Below, piece after piece: positions 2,615 to 39,144 of a stretch of DNA of 43,082 nt. Numbering within the stretch: position 1 is the stretch's first letter; the number at the start of each line of letters is the position of its first letter. The translations under genes were made by a program, and so were the position numbers. The notes under the pieces are model-generated. The model was not told where the DNA came from. It searched no databases and was given only the letters and a program-made list of their open reading frames with translations. Source of the DNA: a virus; IMG/VR virus record IMGVR_UViG_3300041405_000129, positions 1 through 43,082 of that record; one strand, written 5' to 3'.

Positions 2615-3772
2615 ATGGAAACCCCACAATTCACATTGCGCCCTAGCGCTGCGGGGTTGTGGGTTCGGTGCGCGGGCTATGCCACCATGGCTGCCCGCTT
2701 TCCCGAACTCCCCGGCGACAACGAGGTGCGCGAGGAAGGCACGGCGGCGCATTGGGTAGCCTATGAGATTGGCAACAATCGACCAGTACCAGAAGGGACC
2801 GTAAGTCCCAACGGGGTCGAGGTTACCGAGGAAATGCTTGACGGTGTTGCTGAGTACCTGGCGGTGCTGCGCTCTTGGGGCTCGCCGGTTTACATGGAAT
2901 CCCCGGTTGCAATCCCGAGCGTGCACGCTGAGTGTGGCGGCACCGTTGACGCATGGTCATGGGACGCTGCCAATCGCATTATGCGCGTTGCGGATTTGAA
3001 GTTTGGGTATGTTCCGGTAGATCCTTTCGAACTCTGGCAACTCATTTGCTACGTTCGCGGGGTGCTTGACTACCTGCAAGCAATCTATGGGCGGTTCACC
3101 GAGCACTTCACGGTTGAAATGATCATAGTGCAACCCCGTGGCTATGGGCACGATACTGTGAAGGTCTGGCGCACCAACAGCGAGAAGCTGATCCCGTACA
3201 TGACCACGCTGCGCACGGCTGCCAATGCAGCGGTTGCATTCCGTGATGGTAAATTTGATTTAACTGTTGGTAGTGAGCGCGGTGCATTTACTGCAGGCCC
3301 GCACTGCATGAACTGTTCGGCCAACGCGAATTGCGCAACCTTGCAAGCCGCATCGCTTCAACTGATCGACGTGTCAACGGATCATGGGGCACTTGAGTTG
3401 ACGGCTGACCAGGCCGCTGCTGAGCTGCGCCGATTGGACCGCGCTATCAAGGTGATGGAAGCTCGCCAATCTGGACTTGAGGGCAAGTTGACTCACGCAA
3501 TCCAGAAGGAAGGATTCATTCACCGCAACTTTGAAATGGGGAGCGGCAACGGTCGGGTAGTTTGGCAGGAAGGTAAAGCCGTGCAGGCTATTGCACTTGC
3601 CAAGGTGCTTGGATTCGACATCGCTAAACCGCTACAGGCTTTGACGCCCACCCAGGCCAAGGCCAAAATACCCGGCACCGTGCTGGACGCTTTCACGGTA
3701 CGTAAACCTGGCTCGCTGAAACTTCGGCGGCTCGCTGACAATCACGCTGACAAACTTTTCAATCAGGAATAA
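2615..3772 (+). CDS. DUF2800 family Cas4/RecB-like PD-(D/E)XK nuclease
   Basis: The product has 385 aa. The N-terminal RPSAAGLWVRCAGYA followed by EEGTAAHWVAYE matches the start of DUF2800 proteins. The core has VADLKFGYVPVD (the D-x-K of the PD-(D/E)XK site) and IIVQPRG. A C-terminal cluster CMNCSANANC, together with the N-terminal Cys, could hold a Cas4-like iron-sulphur cluster. It probably acts as a 5'-3' exonuclease preparing ssDNA for recombination or replication. It sits two bases after the preceding gene and five bases before the ssDNA-binding-like gene, the usual DUF2800-DUF2815 pairing. Length is normal for the family. The family is clear; the biochemical role is inferred. Confidence 0.88.
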   Translation: METPQFTLRPSAAGLWVRCAGYATMAARFPELPGDNEVREEGTAAHWVAYEIGNNRPVPEGTVSPNGVEVTEEMLDGVAEYLAVLRSWGSPVYMESPVAIPSVHAECGGTVDAWSWDAANRIMRVADLKFGYVPVDPFELWQLICYVRGVLDYLQAIYGRFTEHFTVEMIIVQPRGYGHDTVKVWRTNSEKLIPYMTTLRTAANAAVAFRDGKFDLTVGSERGAFTAGPHCMNCSANANCATLQAASLQLIDVSTDHGALELTADQAAAELRRLDRAIKVMEARQSGLEGKLTHAIQKEGFIHRNFEMGSGNGRVVWQEGKAVQAIALAKVLGFDIAKPLQALTPTQAKAKIPGTVLDAFTVRKPGSLKLRRLADNHADKLFNQE

Positions 3773-3777
3773 AGACA

Positions 3778-4962
3778 ATGCCTCTTAAACTTCTCTCCCC
3801 TGTTGGCCGTATCGTTCAAGGTAACCCGCTGTTCAAATCGCCCGTCATGGACGACGTGACCAAGCAACAGAAAATTGGCAAGGACGGCCAACCGTCGTTC
3901 AACTGGTGGATTACCGTAGCCTTCGACAAGCGCGACCCTGACACCTGGCCGATGATCTGCGCTATCAAGCAAGAAGCGGCGAGCGCCTATCCGCAACTGT
4001 TCCCCCAAGGCTGGAACCCGAACGCCCAAAATGAGGGCTGCGTGCGCCCTGACTTTGCATTCAAAGTGGTCGACGGCGACGGCACCGACCTCAACGGCAA
4101 GCCACACAGCAACAAAGAAGGTTGGGGCGGGCACTACATCGTCAAAATCAGCACCTACGCTGGCACTATGAAGTGCTACGACGGTCTGCAAAACAACCTG
4201 CCGATCACCGACATGGAACAGATCCATACCGGCAAATACGTTCGCGTCTCGCTGGATATCAAGGGCAACGGCTGGACGGGCCAAGGTAACAGCAAACCAG
4301 GTTTGTTTGTGAACCCTGATGGTGTGCAGCTCGTTGGCCACGGTGCCAAGATCAGCGGCGGTCCTGATGCCGATACCATGTTTGCACAACCTGTTAGCGG
4401 CTACATCCCGCCTGGCATGTCGACCACTGCGCCCGTTGCGGCTATCTCGATGCCAGGTCACCAGCCTGCACCGCAGCAAGCTATGCAGATGCCGCAAATG
4501 ACCCCGGCACCACAAGCTCAGCCGCAAATGCAGATGCAAGCCCCGCAACCATCTGCCGCACCCGTGTACACCATGACCCCGGCAGCTCAGGGCTACACCC
4601 GTGAGCAGTGGCTTGCCAACGGCCAGACGGACGAAAGCCTTATCGCCGCCGGCTACATGACCGTCAGCACCCCAGCACCTGCACCGGTCATGGTGGCCCC
4701 TCAGCCGCAAATGCAGATGCCTGCACCGATGGGTCAACAGCCTCAGATGCAAGCCCCGCAACAACCGGCTATGGTGGCCCCTCAGGCCGCACCGCAACCC
4801 CAAATGCAGATGGCTGTACCAAACCCGGCGTTCACTCAGTCGGCGATTGCACCGACCTACACCATGACCCCGGCAGCTCAGGGCTACACCCGTGAGCAGT
4901 GGCTTGCCAACGGCCAGACTGATGCATCATTGATCGCAGCAGGTATGATGCTCGTTGCCTAA
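3778..4962 (+). CDS. DUF2815-type ssDNA-binding-like protein with repeated C-terminal tail
   Basis: The product has 394 aa. Residues 1-190 match DUF2815, a family related to T7 gp2.5-like ssDNA-binding OB folds (FNWWITVAF, GGHYIVKISTYA, TGKYVRVSLDIKGNG). After residue 200 comes a long Gln/Met/Pro linker with repeated PQMQMQAP blocks. A motif YTREQWLANGQTD appears twice, the second copy at the extreme C-terminus, encoded by a perfect 62-bp direct repeat. The start ATG lies in AAAGACAATG, a context shared with several other genes here. A terminator follows. It probably coats ssDNA for the polymerase and helicases. The duplicated tail may be a partner-docking module, as SSB tails often are; that is inference. 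Confidence 0.85.
   Translation: MPLKLLSPVGRIVQGNPLFKSPVMDDVTKQQKIGKDGQPSFNWWITVAFDKRDPDTWPMICAIKQEAASAYPQLFPQGWNPNAQNEGCVRPDFAFKVVDGDGTDLNGKPHSNKEGWGGHYIVKISTYAGTMKCYDGLQNNLPITDMEQIHTGKYVRVSLDIKGNGWTGQGNSKPGLFVNPDGVQLVGHGAKISGGPDADTMFAQPVSGYIPPGMSTTAPVAAISMPGHQPAPQQAMQMPQMTPAPQAQPQMQMQAPQPSAAPVYTMTPAAQGYTREQWLANGQTDESLIAAGYMTVSTPAPAPVMVAPQPQMQMPAPMGQQPQMQAPQQPAMVAPQAAPQPQMQMAVPNPAFTQSAIAPTYTMTPAAQGYTREQWLANGQTDASLIAAGMMLVA
4567..4628 (+). repeat. 62-bp direct repeat inside the SSB-like gene, copy 1
   Basis: This segment is identical to 4858-4919, an offset of 291 bp or 97 codons. It encodes YTMTPAAQGYTREQWLANGQ plus the next codon. The reading frame is kept in both copies. Confidence 0.95.
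4858..4919 (+). repeat. 62-bp direct repeat inside the SSB-like gene, copy 2
   Basis: Second copy of the segment at 4567-4628. It forms the last part of the protein, ending about 14 residues before the stop. Zero divergence suggests a recent duplication or gene conversion. Confidence 0.95.
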
Positions 4963-4982
4963 CTGATCCTTCCCAACCTACA

Positions 4983-5010
4983 AACCCCGGCGAGTCCGGG
5001 GTTTTCTTTG
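4983..5010 (+). terminator. Rho-independent terminator after the SSB-like gene
   Basis: The stem AACCCCGG/CCGGGGTT has a CGAGT loop and runs into TTTTCTTT. It lies 20 bases after the SSB-like stop and only about 12 bases before the polymerase ATG. It would therefore attenuate polymerase transcription rather than close the operon, because no separate promoter is visible between them. Confidence 0.85.
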
Positions 5011-5021
5011 AGTGCACCAAT

Positions 5022-6965
5022 ATGGGCAATTACTCCCAGGCGCCAACAGACGTTGAATGCTACCGCAACTATTTTCTAATCAAGGCCCCCGGCTACAGTT
5101 TTGAGGTACGCCCGCACTGGCAGCTCCCCAACGTGATGGGGCTGCGGTTCTTCCTGGCATCGCACGAAATCATCACGTTCAACGGCAAGAACTATGATGA
5201 ACCGATGATTGCTGCATGCCTTCACCTCATCACGAGCAATCCAGCGATCACGCCCACCCAGCTTTGCGCAGCGCTCAAGGCGTACAGTGACAGCATCATT
5301 GTTGGGCGTGTCAGGGGCTGGCAGTTCTACAAGCAGAACAACATTCCCGAACTGACCTGGCTCAAGCACATCGACTTGTTTGAGGTAGCACCAGGCGTGG
5401 CCATCGGCCTCAAAATGTACATGGGGCGCATGCACTCAGAAACCCTGCAAGACCTGCCAGTTGATCCAATGGCAAACCTGACTGATCAGGAAATGACCAT
5501 TATTGAAAACTACTGCGGCAATGACTTGGCCGGCACGCAAAAGCTGAAGGACACCATCAAGGGTCGGCTTGAGCTGCGCCGCCAGATCAGCGCAGACCTC
5601 GGCGTTGATGTAATGAGTAAGTCAGACGCTCAGATTAGCGAGTCAACCATTATTGCAAAACTTGGGTTCCGCCCGCAGAAGGTGAGCTACCCGCACGGCT
5701 ATCAGTTCCACTACCAGGCCCCGCCGTTCATCAAGTTCAAGACGCAGCAGATGCGTGACGTGTTGGCCACTGTGCTGACTCACGCGTTTACGGTCAACGA
5801 TGTCGATCAGCTCAAAATGCCTGGCGACACTGATGAGGTTCTTGACGCTGACGGCCGCAAGATCAAAACAGGGATCATCATTCCCCCGGCGGTCGCCGCT
5901 TTGCGCGTGCATATGGGTTCAAGCGTTTATAAGTTCGGCATTGGTGGACTGCACAGCCAAGAAAAGTCGGTATTTCACCTGACCGAACCGGGCAAGTGGT
6001 CGCTGTCTGACCATGACGTTGCGAGTTACTACCCGTCGCTCATCTTGCTGATGAACATGTACCCCGGCGCGATCGGTGAGGCGTTCATTGAGATTTACCG
6101 CAGGGTCTACACCGAACGCCTACACGCTAAAAACATGGCAGGTGCGTGCAAGAAGGCCGGCGACAGCGAGGGCGCCAAGCGTTGGAAGACCATCGCAGAC
6201 AGCTTAAAAATTGTGCTTAACGGCGCGTTCGGCAAACTCGGCTCTAAATACTCAATCCTGTTTGCCCCAGAGCTGCTTATCCGCACCACCATCACCGGCC
6301 AGCTTGCGCTACTCATGCTCATTGAGGATATGGAACTGGCAGGTATCCCGGTGATATCGGCGAACACTGACGGCATTATCGTCAAGACGCCCCACGGTAT
6401 GGAAGCAACCCGCGATGCCATCCTCAAAGCATGGGAAGCGGCCACCGGCCTTGAGACTGAGGAAACCAAATACACCGCCGTGTTTAGCCGAGACGTGAAC
6501 AATTACATTGCGTTCAAACCTGACGGCACGCACAAGGCCAAAGGGTGCTTTGGTGAGTCTGGCGTCAGCCCCGAGGCCAGCCCAACCGGCAAGAACCCTG
6601 ACATTGATATCTGTTCTGACGCGGTGATTGCGTACCTGGCCAGGGGCACGCCGCTCTATACGACCATCAGGCAATGCACGGATATCAGACGCTTCCTCAC
6701 AGTGGCCACGTGTGCCGGTGGCGGGTATTGGGAAGGGACCGGTGAGGTGTTGGGTAAAACGGTTCGCTGGTACTACGGCAAGAACTCAACGCACGCCATC
6801 AGGTCAACCAAGCTACGCAACGGCCAGACCCAGGGCAACATGGTTGCGGGCAGTACCGGCAGTGTGCCGTGCATGCGCCTACCTGCTCAGCTCCCGGCAG
6901 ACATCGACTATGAGTTCTATGAGCGGGAAGCCTACAAAATGCTGGGAACAATTGGTGTTCGATAA
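5022..6965 (+). CDS. Family B DNA polymerase with 3'-5' exonuclease domain
   Basis: The product has 647 aa. Exonuclease motifs: Exo I D10-x-E12, Exo II FNGKNYDEP (N54, D59), Exo III YCGND (Y164, D168). Polymerase motifs: A DVASYYPSL (332-340), B KIVLNGAFGKLG (396-407), C SANTDGIIV with NTDG at 448-451. All expected acidic catalytic residues are present, so both activities should work. At 647 residues it is shorter than most cellular and T4-like members (about 800-900). It replicates the phage genome with the AEP primase/SF3 helicase encoded elsewhere. The ATG at 5022 is needed to include Exo I but has no good Shine-Dalgarno sequence, and a terminator hairpin lies just upstream, so expression is probably kept low. 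Confidence 0.94.
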   Translation: MGNYSQAPTDVECYRNYFLIKAPGYSFEVRPHWQLPNVMGLRFFLASHEIITFNGKNYDEPMIAACLHLITSNPAITPTQLCAALKAYSDSIIVGRVRGWQFYKQNNIPELTWLKHIDLFEVAPGVAIGLKMYMGRMHSETLQDLPVDPMANLTDQEMTIIENYCGNDLAGTQKLKDTIKGRLELRRQISADLGVDVMSKSDAQISESTIIAKLGFRPQKVSYPHGYQFHYQAPPFIKFKTQQMRDVLATVLTHAFTVNDVDQLKMPGDTDEVLDADGRKIKTGIIIPPAVAALRVHMGSSVYKFGIGGLHSQEKSVFHLTEPGKWSLSDHDVASYYPSLILLMNMYPGAIGEAFIEIYRRVYTERLHAKNMAGACKKAGDSEGAKRWKTIADSLKIVLNGAFGKLGSKYSILFAPELLIRTTITGQLALLMLIEDMELAGIPVISANTDGIIVKTPHGMEATRDAILKAWEAATGLETEETKYTAVFSRDVNNYIAFKPDGTHKAKGCFGESGVSPEASPTGKNPDIDICSDAVIAYLARGTPLYTTIRQCTDIRRFLTVATCAGGGYWEGTGEVLGKTVRWYYGKNSTHAIRSTKLRNGQTQGNMVAGSTGSVPCMRLPAQLPADIDYEFYEREAYKMLGTIGVR

Positions 6966-29858: not shown

Positions 29859-30023
29859 CTATCTCCAATTCAAATCAATAACAGCTTGCTTGACGAACTC
29901 GCGGCGCTTGGCTTCGTCGGCTAGCGGTGCTGCCTGACCTGCTATATAAGCCTTGTGCAGCTCAGCGCGGAATTTAGGAACGCTCATGGATAGCTGACTT
30001 GTGCCGCTGCGGTTGTTGTTCAT
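29859..30023 (-). CDS. Very small hypothetical protein
   Basis: The product has 54 aa from the ATG at 30023, which overlaps the DUF3850 gene stop as ATGA. A longer frame from 30122 would lie inside that gene and is rejected. The C-terminal two thirds (VPKFRAELHKAYIAGQAAPL, RREFVKQAVIDLNWR) look helical. No family recognised. Confidence 0.62.
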   Translation of the reverse strand: MNNNRSGTSQLSMSVPKFRAELHKAYIAGQAAPLADEAKRREFVKQAVIDLNWR

Positions 30024-30685
30024 TTCAACCCACTCTTCAGACGCTCTATTTCGGCTGCCTGCTGGGCGATGGTGGCTTGCAGTTCGGCGAGTTCGGGCGG
30101 GGCGAAATATACTGCCTTCCACTTGAGTAGATCAGTCTCATCGCCATCAGTATTGCTGATCACTATACCGTCGTCCGACTCGTAGCAGACTTCCCCGCCA
30201 CTGGTCAGGACATACGCTGCCGGTTGAAACTCGACAAATGAAGTTGGCAGGAAGGCACGTTTAATTTTTTCATGTGCGTCTTTTAGTCTCGCTATCTCCG
30301 CTCGGTACTCTTCTTTGTGATCGGTGCTCTTCATCTGCTCCGCAAGAAGATCATGAGTTCGCATAACGCAGACATTTGCGACAACTAGCAATTCGCGATC
30401 CACACTAACTTCAGCCACCGGCTGGCGCTCGACGACAGGGGTGGCGTAGCTCAGAACGCAGATGTCATCAGGTAGACCATAGCCGCGCTGAATGTGAGTG
30501 ATAACGCGAACGATGCTTTTGTTAGCAGGATTTTGCCCAGTTTCGTCTATAAGGAACAGCTCTACTACATCCCCTTCACGAAATTCGCGGTCGGCACAGT
30601 TGCGCACTTCGCCGGTTTTGCGACCGCTAACAAGATCGTCAAACGGCTGCTGATGAATTTTCATATGGTGCACTTGCATTGTCAT
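30020..30685 (-). CDS. DUF3850 (ASCH-like) protein fused to an Ea22-like tail
   Basis: The product has 221 aa. HHMKIHQQPFDDLVSGRKTG and EVRNCADREFREGDVVEL match DUF3850, an ASCH-superfamily RNA-binding-like fold. From about residue 150, FQPAAYVLTSGGEVCYESDD and FAPPELAELQATIAQQAAEI resemble the C-terminal part of Ea22-like phage accessory proteins, ending in a coiled coil. It starts with ATG ACA ATG. It follows terS (four-base overlap) in the late operon. RNA binding or nucleotide modification is possible; no proof is seen. Confidence 0.8.
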   Translation of the reverse strand: MTMQVHHMKIHQQPFDDLVSGRKTGEVRNCADREFREGDVVELFLIDETGQNPANKSIVRVITHIQRGYGLPDDICVLSYATPVVERQPVAEVSVDRELLVVANVCVMRTHDLLAEQMKSTDHKEEYRAEIARLKDAHEKIKRAFLPTSFVEFQPAAYVLTSGGEVCYESDDGIVISNTDGDETDLLKWKAVYFAPPELAELQATIAQQAAEIERLKSGLK

Positions 30686-31464
30686 CCCCTTGCGTTCTTT
30701 TTGATGAATTCCGCGTAGACGTTCGCGGCTTCAACCGGATCAGCCGGCAGCGGGATGTTAGCACTAATTAACGGTCCACCGTCAGCCCCAGTAACGCGCA
30801 AATTATCCGGCGTCATTCCGTGGAACTTGGCCAGGTTGGCAAGCGCTGCATCCTGATCGCGCGTCAAAACCTGCATACCCTGCGCGGTCTGCTTAACCCC
30901 TGCGTACAGGCGCCGGCCTGCGCGGCTCAGTTTGCGGGTGTCAGCAAAGAACGTATCAAGGTGCCCCTCACCTTTGCACTCGGTGCACTCAGGATGAGGG
31001 CGGAACGTGAAGTTGAAGCCGTAGCCGCCCTCATCGCTCGGGATGGCCTGGCGCGGTTCGCCTTTACCTGGCTTGCTCTTGAGTGCCTGGCCTAACACGT
31101 ACGCGAATTCTGCTTTGTCCTTCCACTGATAGAGGTGACCACGTCCATAGCAATGTCGGCAACAGCGCCTCAAGTTGCTCATCAACTCGTTAGGATCAGC
31201 GGTCGCGATGTCCTGCCAAATTTCAAGAATCTGCTTAATTCCAAATTCAGCATCCTTGCTCACCTTTTTTTGAAGGTCTGAAATCAGCTCTTTGACTTGA
31301 GAACGCATTTTCAACGTTGCTGCTCTGCGCGAAATTTCAGAATTCGTCAGTCCCTCAACGCTGTACGCAAATTTGTAAGCTTCCATTGGCTTACCAGATT
31401 CAACGTATTTCTTCGCGAATTCACTTTCCTGCTTCGAAATTCGCCGTTTTCCACGCTTTTTCAT
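30682..31464 (-). CDS. terS: Small terminase subunit with zinc-finger insert
   Basis: The product has 260 aa from the ATG at 31464; a TTG at 31479 is less likely. The N-terminal part, SKQESEFAKKYVESGKPMEA followed by TNSEISRRAATLKM, is the DNA-binding helix-turn-helix of terminase small subunits. Two Cys pairs, CRHCYGRGH and CTECKGEGH, form a DnaJ-like zinc site, a variant known in some phage TerS. It should choose the packaging site. It is the first gene of the late block, just after the GGTTACAAG array, which may be its promoter or binding region. Confidence 0.82.
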   Translation of the reverse strand: MKKRGKRRISKQESEFAKKYVESGKPMEAYKFAYSVEGLTNSEISRRAATLKMRSQVKELISDLQKKVSKDAEFGIKQILEIWQDIATADPNELMSNLRRCCRHCYGRGHLYQWKDKAEFAYVLGQALKSKPGKGEPRQAIPSDEGGYGFNFTFRPHPECTECKGEGHLDTFFADTRKLSRAGRRLYAGVKQTAQGMQVLTRDQDAALANLAKFHGMTPDNLRVTGADGGPLISANIPLPADPVEAANVYAEFIKKNARG

Positions 31465-31488
31465 AATCTCAGCTCTCAAATGTGAAAA

Positions 31489-31773
31489 GGTTACAAGGTG
31501 GGGTTACAAGCTCGTAACCGCTACAGCCCTTGTATTCCGTGGCCTCCAGCCAAAAGGTTACAGGTTACAAGTGGAAAAAATCTAAATACACATAAATACG
31601 AGACACATGCATAACACTCATGGTGGCCACCTATCTATAGCTCTTCCTGTGTAGCTACTTTTCTATTCTACTTGTAACTTGTAACCTTAAGAGATAGAAA
31701 CCCAATAAAACCAAGGGGTTGGTGGGTTACAAGTGGCCTCTAGCTTGTGACCTATCTTGTAACCCTTGTAACC
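31489..31773. repeat. Eleven GGTTACAAG 9-mers flanking an AT-rich core: candidate origin or operator
   Basis: The 312-base gap between terS and the primase gene holds no gene. Plus-oriented copies start at 31489, 31502, 31556 (one mismatch), 31563 and 31725. Inverted copies start at 31511, 31671, 31744 (one mismatch each), 31678, 31756 and 31765. Seven of eleven are perfect. The left cluster (31489-31571) is mainly plus and the right cluster (31671-31773) mainly minus, around an AT-rich centre (31572-31670). Two inverted copies are back to back at 31756-31773. The layout is like iteron origins; an activator or repressor array for the late operon is the alternative. Confidence 0.85.
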
Positions 31774-31776
31774 TGA

Positions 31777-34401
31777 TCAGTTATTAACCAGTTCCGCAAG
31801 ATGTTGAATTTTCGTTAACTCCAACATCGATCTCAGCGTGTCGTTGCTATCACTCGCCACCGTCCCACGCTTCCACCACACCCGGTGCGCTTTCCCGTCC
31901 CACTTGATCACCCCCTTAGGCGAGAACCCCAAACGCGTCAACATGTGGCTAACCGCCGTAGTTTTCGGAATGTCCATCCCGTCCTGTACGCAGATGGTCC
32001 TCATAGCCGCTGCTAGCGCGCTGGAGCTTAAAACAAACTTACCGACACCCACGGCCCCGGTTTCGATGCATTGACGCGCCACGGCCTCATGAGCGTCTTC
32101 CCCGCCCGCTTGCATTTCAGCTTTCTCGCTGGTGTGAGGGGCTTTTGAGTTTGGCTTGAAATTGGCGCTCACCGGGTACTCAACAAAGAACTTGCGCCAC
32201 TCACCGCGTCGGGTGTCCTGCATGCTGTCAAACATCATGTCGTAGTGACCGGCTAACCCTTCGGTTGTCAGGCTCAATGCGCCAGCCAGGTCGCTCAAAT
32301 CACTGAAGGGTGAAAAGATCACCCACCAACGACGGTCGTTGTCTTCCAGCGGCACCGCGTCCACAAAGTTGGTGAATGCGATGTAGTTGGTGACGTTGAT
32401 GATTGACGCACCGGCGGGGCGACCCTTGCGGTTAATCTTGAGCGTGTTGTTGGTGATGGGCTCTTTGATCGCGTTGGCCACGGCATAGCGCTTGGCCCCG
32501 GTAATCATCAGTTCCTCAAAAGCGGTGACGCATGAGCCCTCTTGCCAGTCCCCGAAATCTGAGCATACCAACTTGGCCCCAACGCTGGTTGCGTTGGCAA
32601 ATCCCATCACCGCTTGCATGACGTTAATGATGAGCGACTTGCCGTCACCGGGCATGCCTTTGATGATTGGTGCATACCTGCATTTCTTGCCAGGGTTCTG
32701 CGCGCACCAGGCCATCCAGTCCAACAGGTTGAGATAGACCTCATTGCGGTTGCCGCACAGCGCTTGCAGGTGGCGCAGAAACGCTTGAATGGCATCAATT
32801 CCACCTTGGGTATAGCCGAGGGCGATTTCGGGCACCGTGCTCGGGCTGTACAGGTTGGCGTACCACCGGCCCTCATGATTAAAGATGCTCTCTTTACCTG
32901 GCAGATACATGCAGTCACCCACGGTGGCCGTGTTCCAGCGCTGTAGGCACCACTTGGCCGCGTCCTCACGATCACCGTTCGGCTTCTGCGGCATCATGCG
33001 CTCATACTGCGCATTGAACGCGGTGCGGCTCATGGTCTGAGCGCTCATCAGGTCAAAGAAGCAATCGGTGGCCATGACGTACACGTGGCGGTTGGCCCAC
33101 TCAGGAATAATGCCGCCGTCTTCGTCCTCAACCACCTGCAAGCGCACCATGGCCTTGCAGTCACTGATGCTGACCGGGAAATTCCAATCGGTCATTCGCT
33201 TCTTGATCGCTGCTGCCAGCCAATCCCGGTCAAGCATTGCAATTGAGCGATCAGCAGCTATCTGGGGGATAACGTCGTTGCGCAGGTCCGCGTCATCGTT
33301 GCAGCTCATGATAAGGTCAAAATATTCCTGCCGGCTCACACCCGCGGCAAGGGTCACAGTGGCGTCCAGTTTAGCCACGGTTTCCTTGTCCTGGCACACG
33401 TTGCGGGTTTGCTTGCAGGCACGGTCAACCGTCAGCTCAGCCAAGTAGGTGCGGTGATCGGTCCACTTGGGGCGCACCAACTTTGACGCCCACATCAAGC
33501 GCACCATCCGCTCAGCATCGCACCCCGTCCAGAACGCCAGGTGGGAAGCAAGCGCGAAATCAACCTCAGTGCCCCCATAGGGCAATCCGTCGCTGCGGCC
33601 CTCATCAGGATAGTGCTGCGCGAGCACCGGAACGTTGCAGGTCCACAAATCCGCAAAGGTCGCTTTACCACCAAACATGGCAGCACCCGACCGCGACTGC
33701 ATCGCGCGCCTTATCAGCTCATTGTCATCGGTGGGGCCATTCCAATCTGCGCGCGGGCCATTGCCCACCAGCATGGCAACAGACTGCTCAGGTTTGAAAA
33801 TGTTATCGACGATGTACTGTGCTTGAGCCCCAAGGTGTGTATCGGCAGACCCCCAAGCCTGGCCGCTCAAGCCGAACGCGATACCGCGACCGCTGGTGTA
33901 GAACTCAAGATCATTGCCAGGGTGCTCAGCGTTCCATGCTTGGGTTGGTCGTGTGCGGTGACCAGCCGGCGGGCAACCTCGACCTATAAGGTGGATGCCC
34001 TTTCCGCTAGAACTGTACTCAAAGAAGGCCCCTGGCAAGTTTTGGTAAAACCAGCTTGCCCAGGGTGTGAGCTGACCATCAGCACCAACACACCCGTCGA
34101 CATCCAAGAACCAATAACCGCAATCAGCAGTAACCATAAAACCGAGCGTGTAGACATAGCCGTCAAGTCTCCCAAAGTGAGCCGCAAGCTGAGCCGTGGC
34201 TACCTCATATGATGTCCACGCGTACGGTTTTTGAACGTCTGGACCTTTTAACTTTCCGTTCTCATCGAACTCAATTCGTCCATCAGGGTGCGCAGGCACC
34301 TTTAAGTATTTCCCCGGTTTCTTTGGATCTGGCGCCAAGCGCCACACAAACCATTGATTGATGGCGGTCATACCCGCCAAAGCAGTTGATAGCATTGTCA
34401 T
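31777..34401 (-). CDS. AEP-type primase-polymerase with SF3 (DUF5906-like) helicase
   Basis: The product has 874 aa from the ATG at 34401 (ATG ACA ATG; AAGG upstream). The N-terminal primase has D100-x-D102 (FLDVDG) and SSSGKGIHLIG with H137, the catalytic set of archaeo-eukaryotic primases. The C-terminal helicase has Walker A GMPGDGKS (582-589), then FGDWQEGSCVTAFEELMI and ITNNTLKINRKGRPAGAS, as in SF3/D5-like helicases. It primes and unwinds at the phage origin, and the repeat array lies right after its stop. A 75-bp structured leader precedes it. Confidence 0.92.
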   Translation of the reverse strand: MTMLSTALAGMTAINQWFVWRLAPDPKKPGKYLKVPAHPDGRIEFDENGKLKGPDVQKPYAWTSYEVATAQLAAHFGRLDGYVYTLGFMVTADCGYWFLDVDGCVGADGQLTPWASWFYQNLPGAFFEYSSSGKGIHLIGRGCPPAGHRTRPTQAWNAEHPGNDLEFYTSGRGIAFGLSGQAWGSADTHLGAQAQYIVDNIFKPEQSVAMLVGNGPRADWNGPTDDNELIRRAMQSRSGAAMFGGKATFADLWTCNVPVLAQHYPDEGRSDGLPYGGTEVDFALASHLAFWTGCDAERMVRLMWASKLVRPKWTDHRTYLAELTVDRACKQTRNVCQDKETVAKLDATVTLAAGVSRQEYFDLIMSCNDDADLRNDVIPQIAADRSIAMLDRDWLAAAIKKRMTDWNFPVSISDCKAMVRLQVVEDEDGGIIPEWANRHVYVMATDCFFDLMSAQTMSRTAFNAQYERMMPQKPNGDREDAAKWCLQRWNTATVGDCMYLPGKESIFNHEGRWYANLYSPSTVPEIALGYTQGGIDAIQAFLRHLQALCGNRNEVYLNLLDWMAWCAQNPGKKCRYAPIIKGMPGDGKSLIINVMQAVMGFANATSVGAKLVCSDFGDWQEGSCVTAFEELMITGAKRYAVANAIKEPITNNTLKINRKGRPAGASIINVTNYIAFTNFVDAVPLEDNDRRWWVIFSPFSDLSDLAGALSLTTEGLAGHYDMMFDSMQDTRRGEWRKFFVEYPVSANFKPNSKAPHTSEKAEMQAGGEDAHEAVARQCIETGAVGVGKFVLSSSALAAAMRTICVQDGMDIPKTTAVSHMLTRLGFSPKGVIKWDGKAHRVWWKRGTVASDSNDTLRSMLELTKIQHLAELVNN

Positions 34402-38056: not shown

Positions 38057-38320
38057 TCAATCCAAACCAGTCTCGGGCGGTGCAAGGCGCACCCTGTTTG
38101 CCATCCGTTCGAAAGTTTCGGCCAGTGCCTCACGGCGCTCTTTGGACTTTGGCAACCAGAAGGTTACCGCGCTACGGTCGTCATCCTCGGGCGGATGGTG
38201 CAAGCGCTCGCTACTGTGCAGGATCATTTGCACGGCGCTGTAGGTCAACCCGGTGTTCGACACCTTGTGAATCTCAACGACTTCGCTTGTCAACTCCTGG
38301 CTGTAAACGTTGATTCTCAT
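38057..38320 (-). CDS. Small conserved-looking hypothetical protein
   Basis: The product has 87 aa: MRINVYSQELTSEVVEIHKV, TGLTYSAVQMILHSSERLHH, DDDRSAVTFWLPKSKERREA. I recall similar small proteins in other phages near ParB-like genes but know no function. Probably an alpha/beta fold. It overlaps the ParB-like gene stop by four bases. Confidence 0.72.
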   Translation of the reverse strand: MRINVYSQELTSEVVEIHKVSNTGLTYSAVQMILHSSERLHHPPEDDDRSAVTFWLPKSKERREALAETFERMANRVRLAPPETGLD

Positions 38321-39144
38321 GCTCGCACCTCATGCACTTCTTTCAATACTAGATTCAAAACCTGCAAACGGGTTTCGTCATCAAACTCAACCATTGCCGC
38401 AGCAGCATGAATCAGACGCTCTACCAGGGCCTCAGGGATGCGCTTAGGTCTGAGCACGGCGTTAGTCACCCGAGTCTTGCCGATCGCCTTGGCCTCAACG
38501 AGAGCTGCACCCAGCACCGCCCCAGCCTTGTCACCGTGAGTCTTCACAGCCTGCGCGGCAATAGTTGGTTTGACCTCACCGGCCTTGACCATTTCGTGCA
38601 CGTCGGTGTTGCCGCTGGCCAGGGTAAGGACGCGTTGAATCGTGGCCAACTTCTCACCGCTGCGGTCAGCTATCTGTTGCGGTGTCCAGCCAAACCCAAG
38701 CAGCTTGTTATAGACCCGCCCGAGCCCGAGCACGTCAACTTCGGCACGCTTGGTGCTGGTTGCCTGGCGCAACAGTTGCTCAGCGTCATTGCCGACAAAA
38801 GGTTTGACTGATACCCACGCTTCAAGAATTGTCGGGTCATCCTTGTTTGGGGTGCGGGGTAACGTCCCGCGTTCGTCCATCTTTTTAAAGGCAAAGCGGC
38901 GTGTGTGCCCCTGTACAACCCACACGCCACCCTCAGCACGCGGCACAACCTCAAGCGCCTCAACGGTGCCACCAGCTTCAAGGTACGCCACCAGCGCGTC
39001 AACGTCCTCTTGATACTTTGGCGAATTGTAGTCGCGAACGATGTTGAAGCCTGGTCGCTCGTGGATGTCTTCCAGACGAACGCTGTTGGCTTCACCGCGC
39101 TTTACGGTGCCGTCGTGACGCATGGATTTAAAGGTTGGTTGCAT
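38317..39144 (-). CDS. ParB/Spo0J-like DNA-binding protein
   Basis: The product has 275 aa. The N-terminal ParB-like domain has VWVVQGHTRRFAFKKM (the G-x-x-RR-x-x-A box). Residues about 150-200 (GFGWTPQQIADRSGEKLATI) form the helix-turn-helix. The last part is helical. No partner ParA is seen, so segregation is unlikely; a CTP-dependent DNA-binding regulator or nuclease-related role is more plausible. Starts in a TGACAATG context. Confidence 0.82.
   Translation of the reverse strand: MQPTFKSMRHDGTVKRGEANSVRLEDIHERPGFNIVRDYNSPKYQEDVDALVAYLEAGGTVEALEVVPRAEGGVWVVQGHTRRFAFKKMDERGTLPRTPNKDDPTILEAWVSVKPFVGNDAEQLLRQATSTKRAEVDVLGLGRVYNKLLGFGWTPQQIADRSGEKLATIQRVLTLASGNTDVHEMVKAGEVKPTIAAQAVKTHGDKAGAVLGAALVEAKAIGKTRVTNAVLRPKRIPEALVERLIHAAAAMVEFDDETRLQVLNLVLKEVHEVRA

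Follow-up and report, generated by a model that had tools for sequence, protein, structure and literature searches.

In PICI and SaPI elements the replication origin lies directly after the gene of its initiator, with two sets of iterons flanking an AT-rich stretch, and the initiator, which has primase and helicase parts, binds this origin by its C-terminal domain (PMC6092414, PMC7581432). SaPI Rep and SCCmec Cch2 both recognise their repeats by the C-terminal domain and are thought to self-load as helicases; for Cch2, a self-loading helicase, gel shifts place the binding of the C-terminal domain at repeats just downstream of its own gene, in its putative origin (PMC7581432). The PICI literature calls this origin type unique to satellites. 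In P4 the alpha protein is likewise a fused primase-helicase initiator, and the P4 annotation places the crr iterons directly after the alpha gene. A fourth point of comparison is the NrS-1 polymerase, made of prim-pol, HBD and DUF5906 helicase parts. The available excerpts of its description report that the C-terminal region forms a hexameric ring, call the tail domain a novel fold and give two copies of an 8-nt recognition sequence in the genome; these excerpts describe neither a winged helix nor an array (PMC7102993).

The stretch of DNA analysed here, which we call the window, is a virus record, 43,082 bases long. It encodes a major head protein, portal, tail sheath, tape measure, terminase subunits and a DNA polymerase, together with a Gp2.5-like ssDNA-binding protein and an exonuclease. 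With head, tail, terminase and DNA polymerase genes of its own it is a tailed phage and no satellite, unlike the PICI and SaPI elements. The exonuclease, ssDNA-binding protein and DNA polymerase genes lie at 2615-6965 on the plus strand, opposite to the primase, and the phage seems to bring its own polymerase. The features on which the argument turns are as follows.

31777 to 34401, minus strand: primase-helicase gene, 874 aa from ATG (889 from an upstream TTG)
31858 to 32094, minus strand: segment of the primase-helicase gene that encodes residues 770-848, the predicted winged helix, placed by AlphaFold2 secondary structure
31671 to 31773: primase-side iteron cluster, copies at 31671 (minus, AGTTACAAG), 31678 (minus), 31725 (plus), 31744 (minus, GGTCACAAG), 31756 (minus) and 31765 (minus)
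31575 to 31668: AT-rich stretch between the clusters, 36% GC in a window mostly at 50-60%, the presumed unwinding region
31489 to 31571: TerS-side iteron cluster, copies at 31489 (plus), 31502 (plus), 31511 (minus, GGTTACGAG), 31556 (plus, GGTTACAGG) and 31563 (plus)
31524 to 31544, minus strand: accessory element GGCCACGGAATACAAGGGCTG, inside the array, the only recognisable copy found in the window
30682 to 31479, minus strand: small terminase subunit (TerS) gene (Terminase_2, phrog_51), the next gene past the array

The initial annotation had described eleven copies of a 9-mer, in two clusters of mostly opposite orientation around an AT-rich stretch, between a primase-helicase gene and a small terminase gene. 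A recount by 9-mer scan gave exactly this: GGTTACAAG occurs 11 times at 31489-31773, in 7 exact copies and 4 that differ at one position, inside the non-coding gap between the primase and TerS reading frames, both on the minus strand, and the copies read + + - + + in the left, TerS-side cluster and - - + - - - in the right, primase-side cluster. Nor is the 9-mer equally dense elsewhere in the genome, which the same annotation had named as grounds for abandoning the idea, for outside the array the 43,082 bp hold 16 one-mismatch copies and not a single exact one. Over the whole window there are 27 matches with at most one mismatch where 7.3 are expected, and none of 100 shuffles reaches 27. The array starts 3 bp past the primase stop codon and thereby adjoins the gene of the candidate initiator directly 3'. 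Its inner copies form tandem pairs with 7-bp spacing, 31556/31563 on the plus strand and 31671/31678 on the minus strand, which face each other across the AT-rich stretch. By nearest-neighbour energy, no 100-bp stretch of the window is less stable than 31611-31710, which overlaps both the AT-rich stretch and the primase-side tandem pair. Cumulative GC skew, suggested earlier as a check at 31.6 kb, falls steadily across the window with no turn there and neither supports nor decides an origin.

We consider it highly likely that the array is the phage's replication origin and that its iterons are bound by the predicted C-terminal winged helix of the adjacent NrS-1-like primase-helicase. What the computation shows is the array itself, a constant position behind the primase gene, a layout that relatives conserve, a minimum of DNA stability between the two clusters, and the covariation of the repeated word with those primase residues that would be expected to touch DNA; of the functions first proposed for the array, the iteron origin is the one that is well supported.

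The primase-helicase consists, in order, of a prim-pol half, an NrS-1-type HBD (PF22763), a DUF5906 helicase and the predicted C-terminal winged helix. Both PF22763 and PF19263 score above their cut-offs, which gives the protein the prim-pol, HBD and DUF5906 composition shared with the NrS-1 polymerase, and its profile matches are NrS-1-type primase crystal structures and a 797-residue DNA primase (7ola). A search for relatives of this primase in bacterial genomes gave no confirmed one. Pfam has no domain over the C-terminal part, and a sequence search of this domain against the PDB gave nothing usable. AlphaFold2 models the C-terminal ~80 residues with helices at 770-781, 793-807 and 814-823, the last being the recognition helix, and with wing strands at 826-834 and 837-844. 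The domain is thus predicted to be a winged helix, its secondary structure fitting the order of helix, helix, recognition helix and two-stranded wing. Foldseek returned weak matches only, none below 1e-3, and the best of them (5e-3) are Cdc6/Orc1 initiators bound to origin DNA.

The window locus resembles the PICI and SaPI origins in that the array lies directly 3' of the initiator gene, as it does in most relatives with arrays, and in that the iterons form two sets around an AT-rich stretch; it differs in that the candidate initiator is an NrS-1-like prim-pol. It shares with Cch2 the repeats just downstream of the initiator gene, whereas Cch2 belongs to a staphylococcal mobile element, has only three iterons, with AAGTG, and carries no fused prim-pol. 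The likeness to P4 extends to the helicase part, which distantly matches P4 alpha, and to the P4 iterons GGTGAACAG, which are close to the GGTNNCNAG words of these phages. However, the P4 iterons are split between ori and crr, and the P4-family primase_Cterm model (TIGR01613) matches P4 alpha but has no match in the window protein, the Chi primase falling far below its cut-off. The C-terminal domains have no link in sequence either, hhalign of the window domain against the P4 alpha C terminus showing no relation.

To compare relatives we took 11 IMG/VR loci with 70-100% identical primases first and then more distant loci, followed by 80 from a profile query, 2 from a Silvanus query, and named phages. 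Some contigs are repeated among these, and 83 distinct loci were scored, an uneven sample drawn from metagenomes. The initial annotation had proposed looking for the same 9-mer at the same place in relatives, and had held that relatives lacking any repeated element here would speak against it. Relatives with primases 25-91% identical do carry an array in the same place and of similar layout, but the word itself usually differs (GGTCCCAAG, GGTCACAAG, GGTAACAGG, AGGTTCGAG, AGGTCGGAG and others) and is shared by only some of them. Among close relatives the place and orientations of the array are kept with the words GGTTACAAG, GGTCCCAAG, GGTCACAAG, GGTAACAGG and GGTTACAGG, and within one phage most copies carry the change jointly. 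Words diverge more in distant loci (AGGTCGGAGT, AGGATCGAGT, AGGTTCGAGG, AGGTAACAGT, ACCATACAAG and others). The suggestion of a new DNA-binding specificity therefore holds in a wider sense, each lineage having its own word. In named phages the arrays after the primase have these words:

Psp6: GGTAACAAG
Silvanus: GGTTACAGG
Curvibacter PCA1: GGTTCCAAG (weaker array)
BcepNazgul: AGGTCCGAAT
Chi: GGTTACAAA
STP-3: GGTAACAGA
JS26: CTACGCAAT
Vibrio 1.017.O: GTATCCGAA
AhaSv: ACTGTCACA

In AhaSv, Chi and STP-3 the array stands some 400-900 bp past the primase stop.

The place of the arrays was measured by scanning every locus from end to end for dense 9-mers, blind to gene position; an array counted as strong at a score of at least 4.4 (the maximum in shuffled loci was 3.4). 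Of the 54 strong arrays in the 83 distinct loci, 44 have their centre between -60 and +800 bp from the primase stop, a stretch that accounts for about 10% of the sequence scanned, and 7 of the remaining 10 are direct repeats on one strand. Many of the 83 loci fall below the threshold, and family members without an array exist. The convergent layout, in which one tandem pair is separated from an inverted one by a gap with a median of 100 bp, is present in 49 of the 58 loci to which a word was assigned. In six phages whose primase ends in another C terminus (JD001, Scuro, SppYZU01, OLIVR4, PVN06 and B2), no comparable inverted array stands directly after the gene.

Other repeats occur at these loci. 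In L024 and L025, whose primase C terminus also differs, direct repeats of GTGGGCGGC take the place of the inverted array, with seven direct TAGTGGGCGGC-like copies on one strand, 130-500 bp past the primase stop; these may be an origin of a different kind. Edwardsiella phage PVN06 (L033) has at least 25 direct copies of a 15-bp unit 736-1100 bp after the primase stop, probably a coding repeat. Most close relatives of the window carry two direct copies of a GCCCCGGTTTATAAGGG-like element per origin region, which in L001-L010 stand at about +58 to +66 and +237 to +247 after the primase stop; in L002 and L003 both copies are perfect. This element is possibly the site of a second protein or a piece of the unwinding region.

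The gene that follows the array varies while the array stays with the primase: it is an endolysin gene in Silvanus and a regulator gene in Chi, and in BcepNazgul the array is followed by the cos end. This bears on two further functions raised in the initial annotation. If the array were a packaging (pac) site bound by the neighbouring TerS, as the position of terS as the next gene in the window might suggest, its word should go with TerS. Instead, TerS proteins 89% (L001, the one most similar) and 81% (L003) identical to that of the window go with the other word GGTCCCAAG, and TerS proteins only 73% (L005), 69% (L006) and 43% (L020) identical go with the same word GGTTACAAG. We therefore rejected TerS as the binding partner, since the site word does not follow it across relatives and the downstream gene changes, and regard a pac site as highly improbable. 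Directly after terS the window has a DUF3850 / RNA-binding-like gene (30020-30685, minus strand).

The array also lies upstream of the late genes in the sense of transcription, and replication initiators often bind regulatory sites as well, so that it could be an operator switching on the late (terminase, head) operon or one through which the primase autoregulates its own operon. We found no sigma-70-like promoter or intrinsic terminator in the array region, however, and the convergent arrangement, with the window's least stable DNA in its middle, is one that an origin requires. Because the gene after the array varies, late switching is unlikely as the main role and would be a side role at most, though the primase may regulate its own operon; overall we rate this explanation as quite improbable.

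A pointer to the reader of the iterons comes from comparing words with primase residues. Words were assigned to 58 loci, 50 after removal of near-duplicates, from scan and motif output with the register set by eye; they derive from short, noisy arrays and were in part set by hand. For 279 primase columns, pairwise residue differences were compared with word differences after regression on helicase identity. With these semi-manual words from 50 loci, the top five columns are 840, 814, 815, 831 and 839, all of them in the recognition helix or the wing, and residue 840 reaches 0.53 as against 0.25 for the best column outside the C-terminal domain. The residues pair with particular word positions: 833 with 2-3, 831 with 5, 840 and 839 with 6-7, and 814 and 815 with 9-10. 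K833 is replaced by W in L054 and L058, the two loci in which the leading GG is swapped for CA or CC.

In a second run both words and register were set automatically, giving words identical to the earlier ones in 38 of 58 loci. Residues 840, 833 and 831 then rank first and 814, 815 and 838 are in the top ten, as are helicase column 698 and others. Columns 840 and 833 lie above the 99% level of the permutations, and none of 1000 permutations reaches the observed maximum; the permutation ignores the tree, so a fairer control is provided by the helicase columns, which have the same tree and mostly do not track the word. Seven residues track the word: 814, 815, 831, 833, 838, 839 and 840. Because the origin adjoins the 3' end of the gene, linkage may contribute to the correlation, yet the highest columns are of the contact type and do not cover the whole domain.

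Close pairs of loci illustrate the effect at the seven contact positions, with a mean of 1.3 changes when words are equal and 4.2 when they differ (mean helicase identities 0.79 and 0.75), a comparison that is no test because the positions were picked from the same data. The other winged-helix positions differ more too, 0.28 with equal and 0.42 with different words, so that general divergence of the domain accounts for some of the signal. At 63% helicase identity, L009 has the same word as the window and agrees with it at each of the seven positions. L109 (array after 3049) and L124 (array after 6319) have primase genes 93% identical and mixed arrays, five copies of GGGTCGAG and one of GGTTCGAG in the former against two and four in the latter, and in the column of residue 831 one has T and the other P. 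This looks like a word change caught part-way, copy by copy.

The covariation supports the predicted winged helix of the adjacent primase-helicase as the reader of the iterons. It also bears on the idea that the array serves a ParB-like protein as a partition or centromere-like site. Such a protein is encoded in the window (38317-39144, minus strand; phrog_1033, E = 8e-52), and Psp6 has a gene also annotated as ParB-like, upstream of its primase. However, the word tracks the primase, and no ParB-like gene is annotated in the stretches around the Silvanus, Chi and BcepNazgul arrays; we give a partition site almost no credence.

For the replication origin, the best reading by analogy is that it works like those of P4 and SaPI/PICI. 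Copies of the initiator would bind both facing clusters through the C-terminal winged helix, and two hexamers would assemble face to face, their helicase parts melting the AT-rich stretch between them. The prim-pol part would lay the first primers, which the phage's own DNA polymerase could then extend. Binding, the face-to-face loading of two helicases, unwinding and priming are all inferred from the P4, SaPI and SCCmec initiators.

In the literature searched, which was mainly open-access, we found no description of an origin for these tailed phages, and the same sources gave no description of such arrays in Chi-like phages or beside NrS-1-like primases. What is new, judged from sequence, is that a satellite-style origin type very probably occurs across many tailed phages, Chi, BcepNazgul, Psp6 and Silvanus among them. 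A probable origin and the protein reading it can thereby be named for tailed phages, and the satellite origin type would extend beyond satellites. Also new is a natural set of matched initiator-word pairs, some of them from phages with more than 90% identical helicases, which would open origin specificity to direct testing. Such pairs would show by which residues individual bases are read, and how a site present in many copies changes along with its reader. We would put at even chances the broader proposition that a large group of tailed phages to which Chi and BcepNazgul belong uses satellite-type iteron origins with lineage-specific words read through about seven recognition-helix and wing residues, so that the set forms a readable protein-DNA code and close relatives are mutually non-interchangeable for replication. 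If this is true, the drift of the word may have been pressed by co-infecting phages or satellites that exploit the same initiator.
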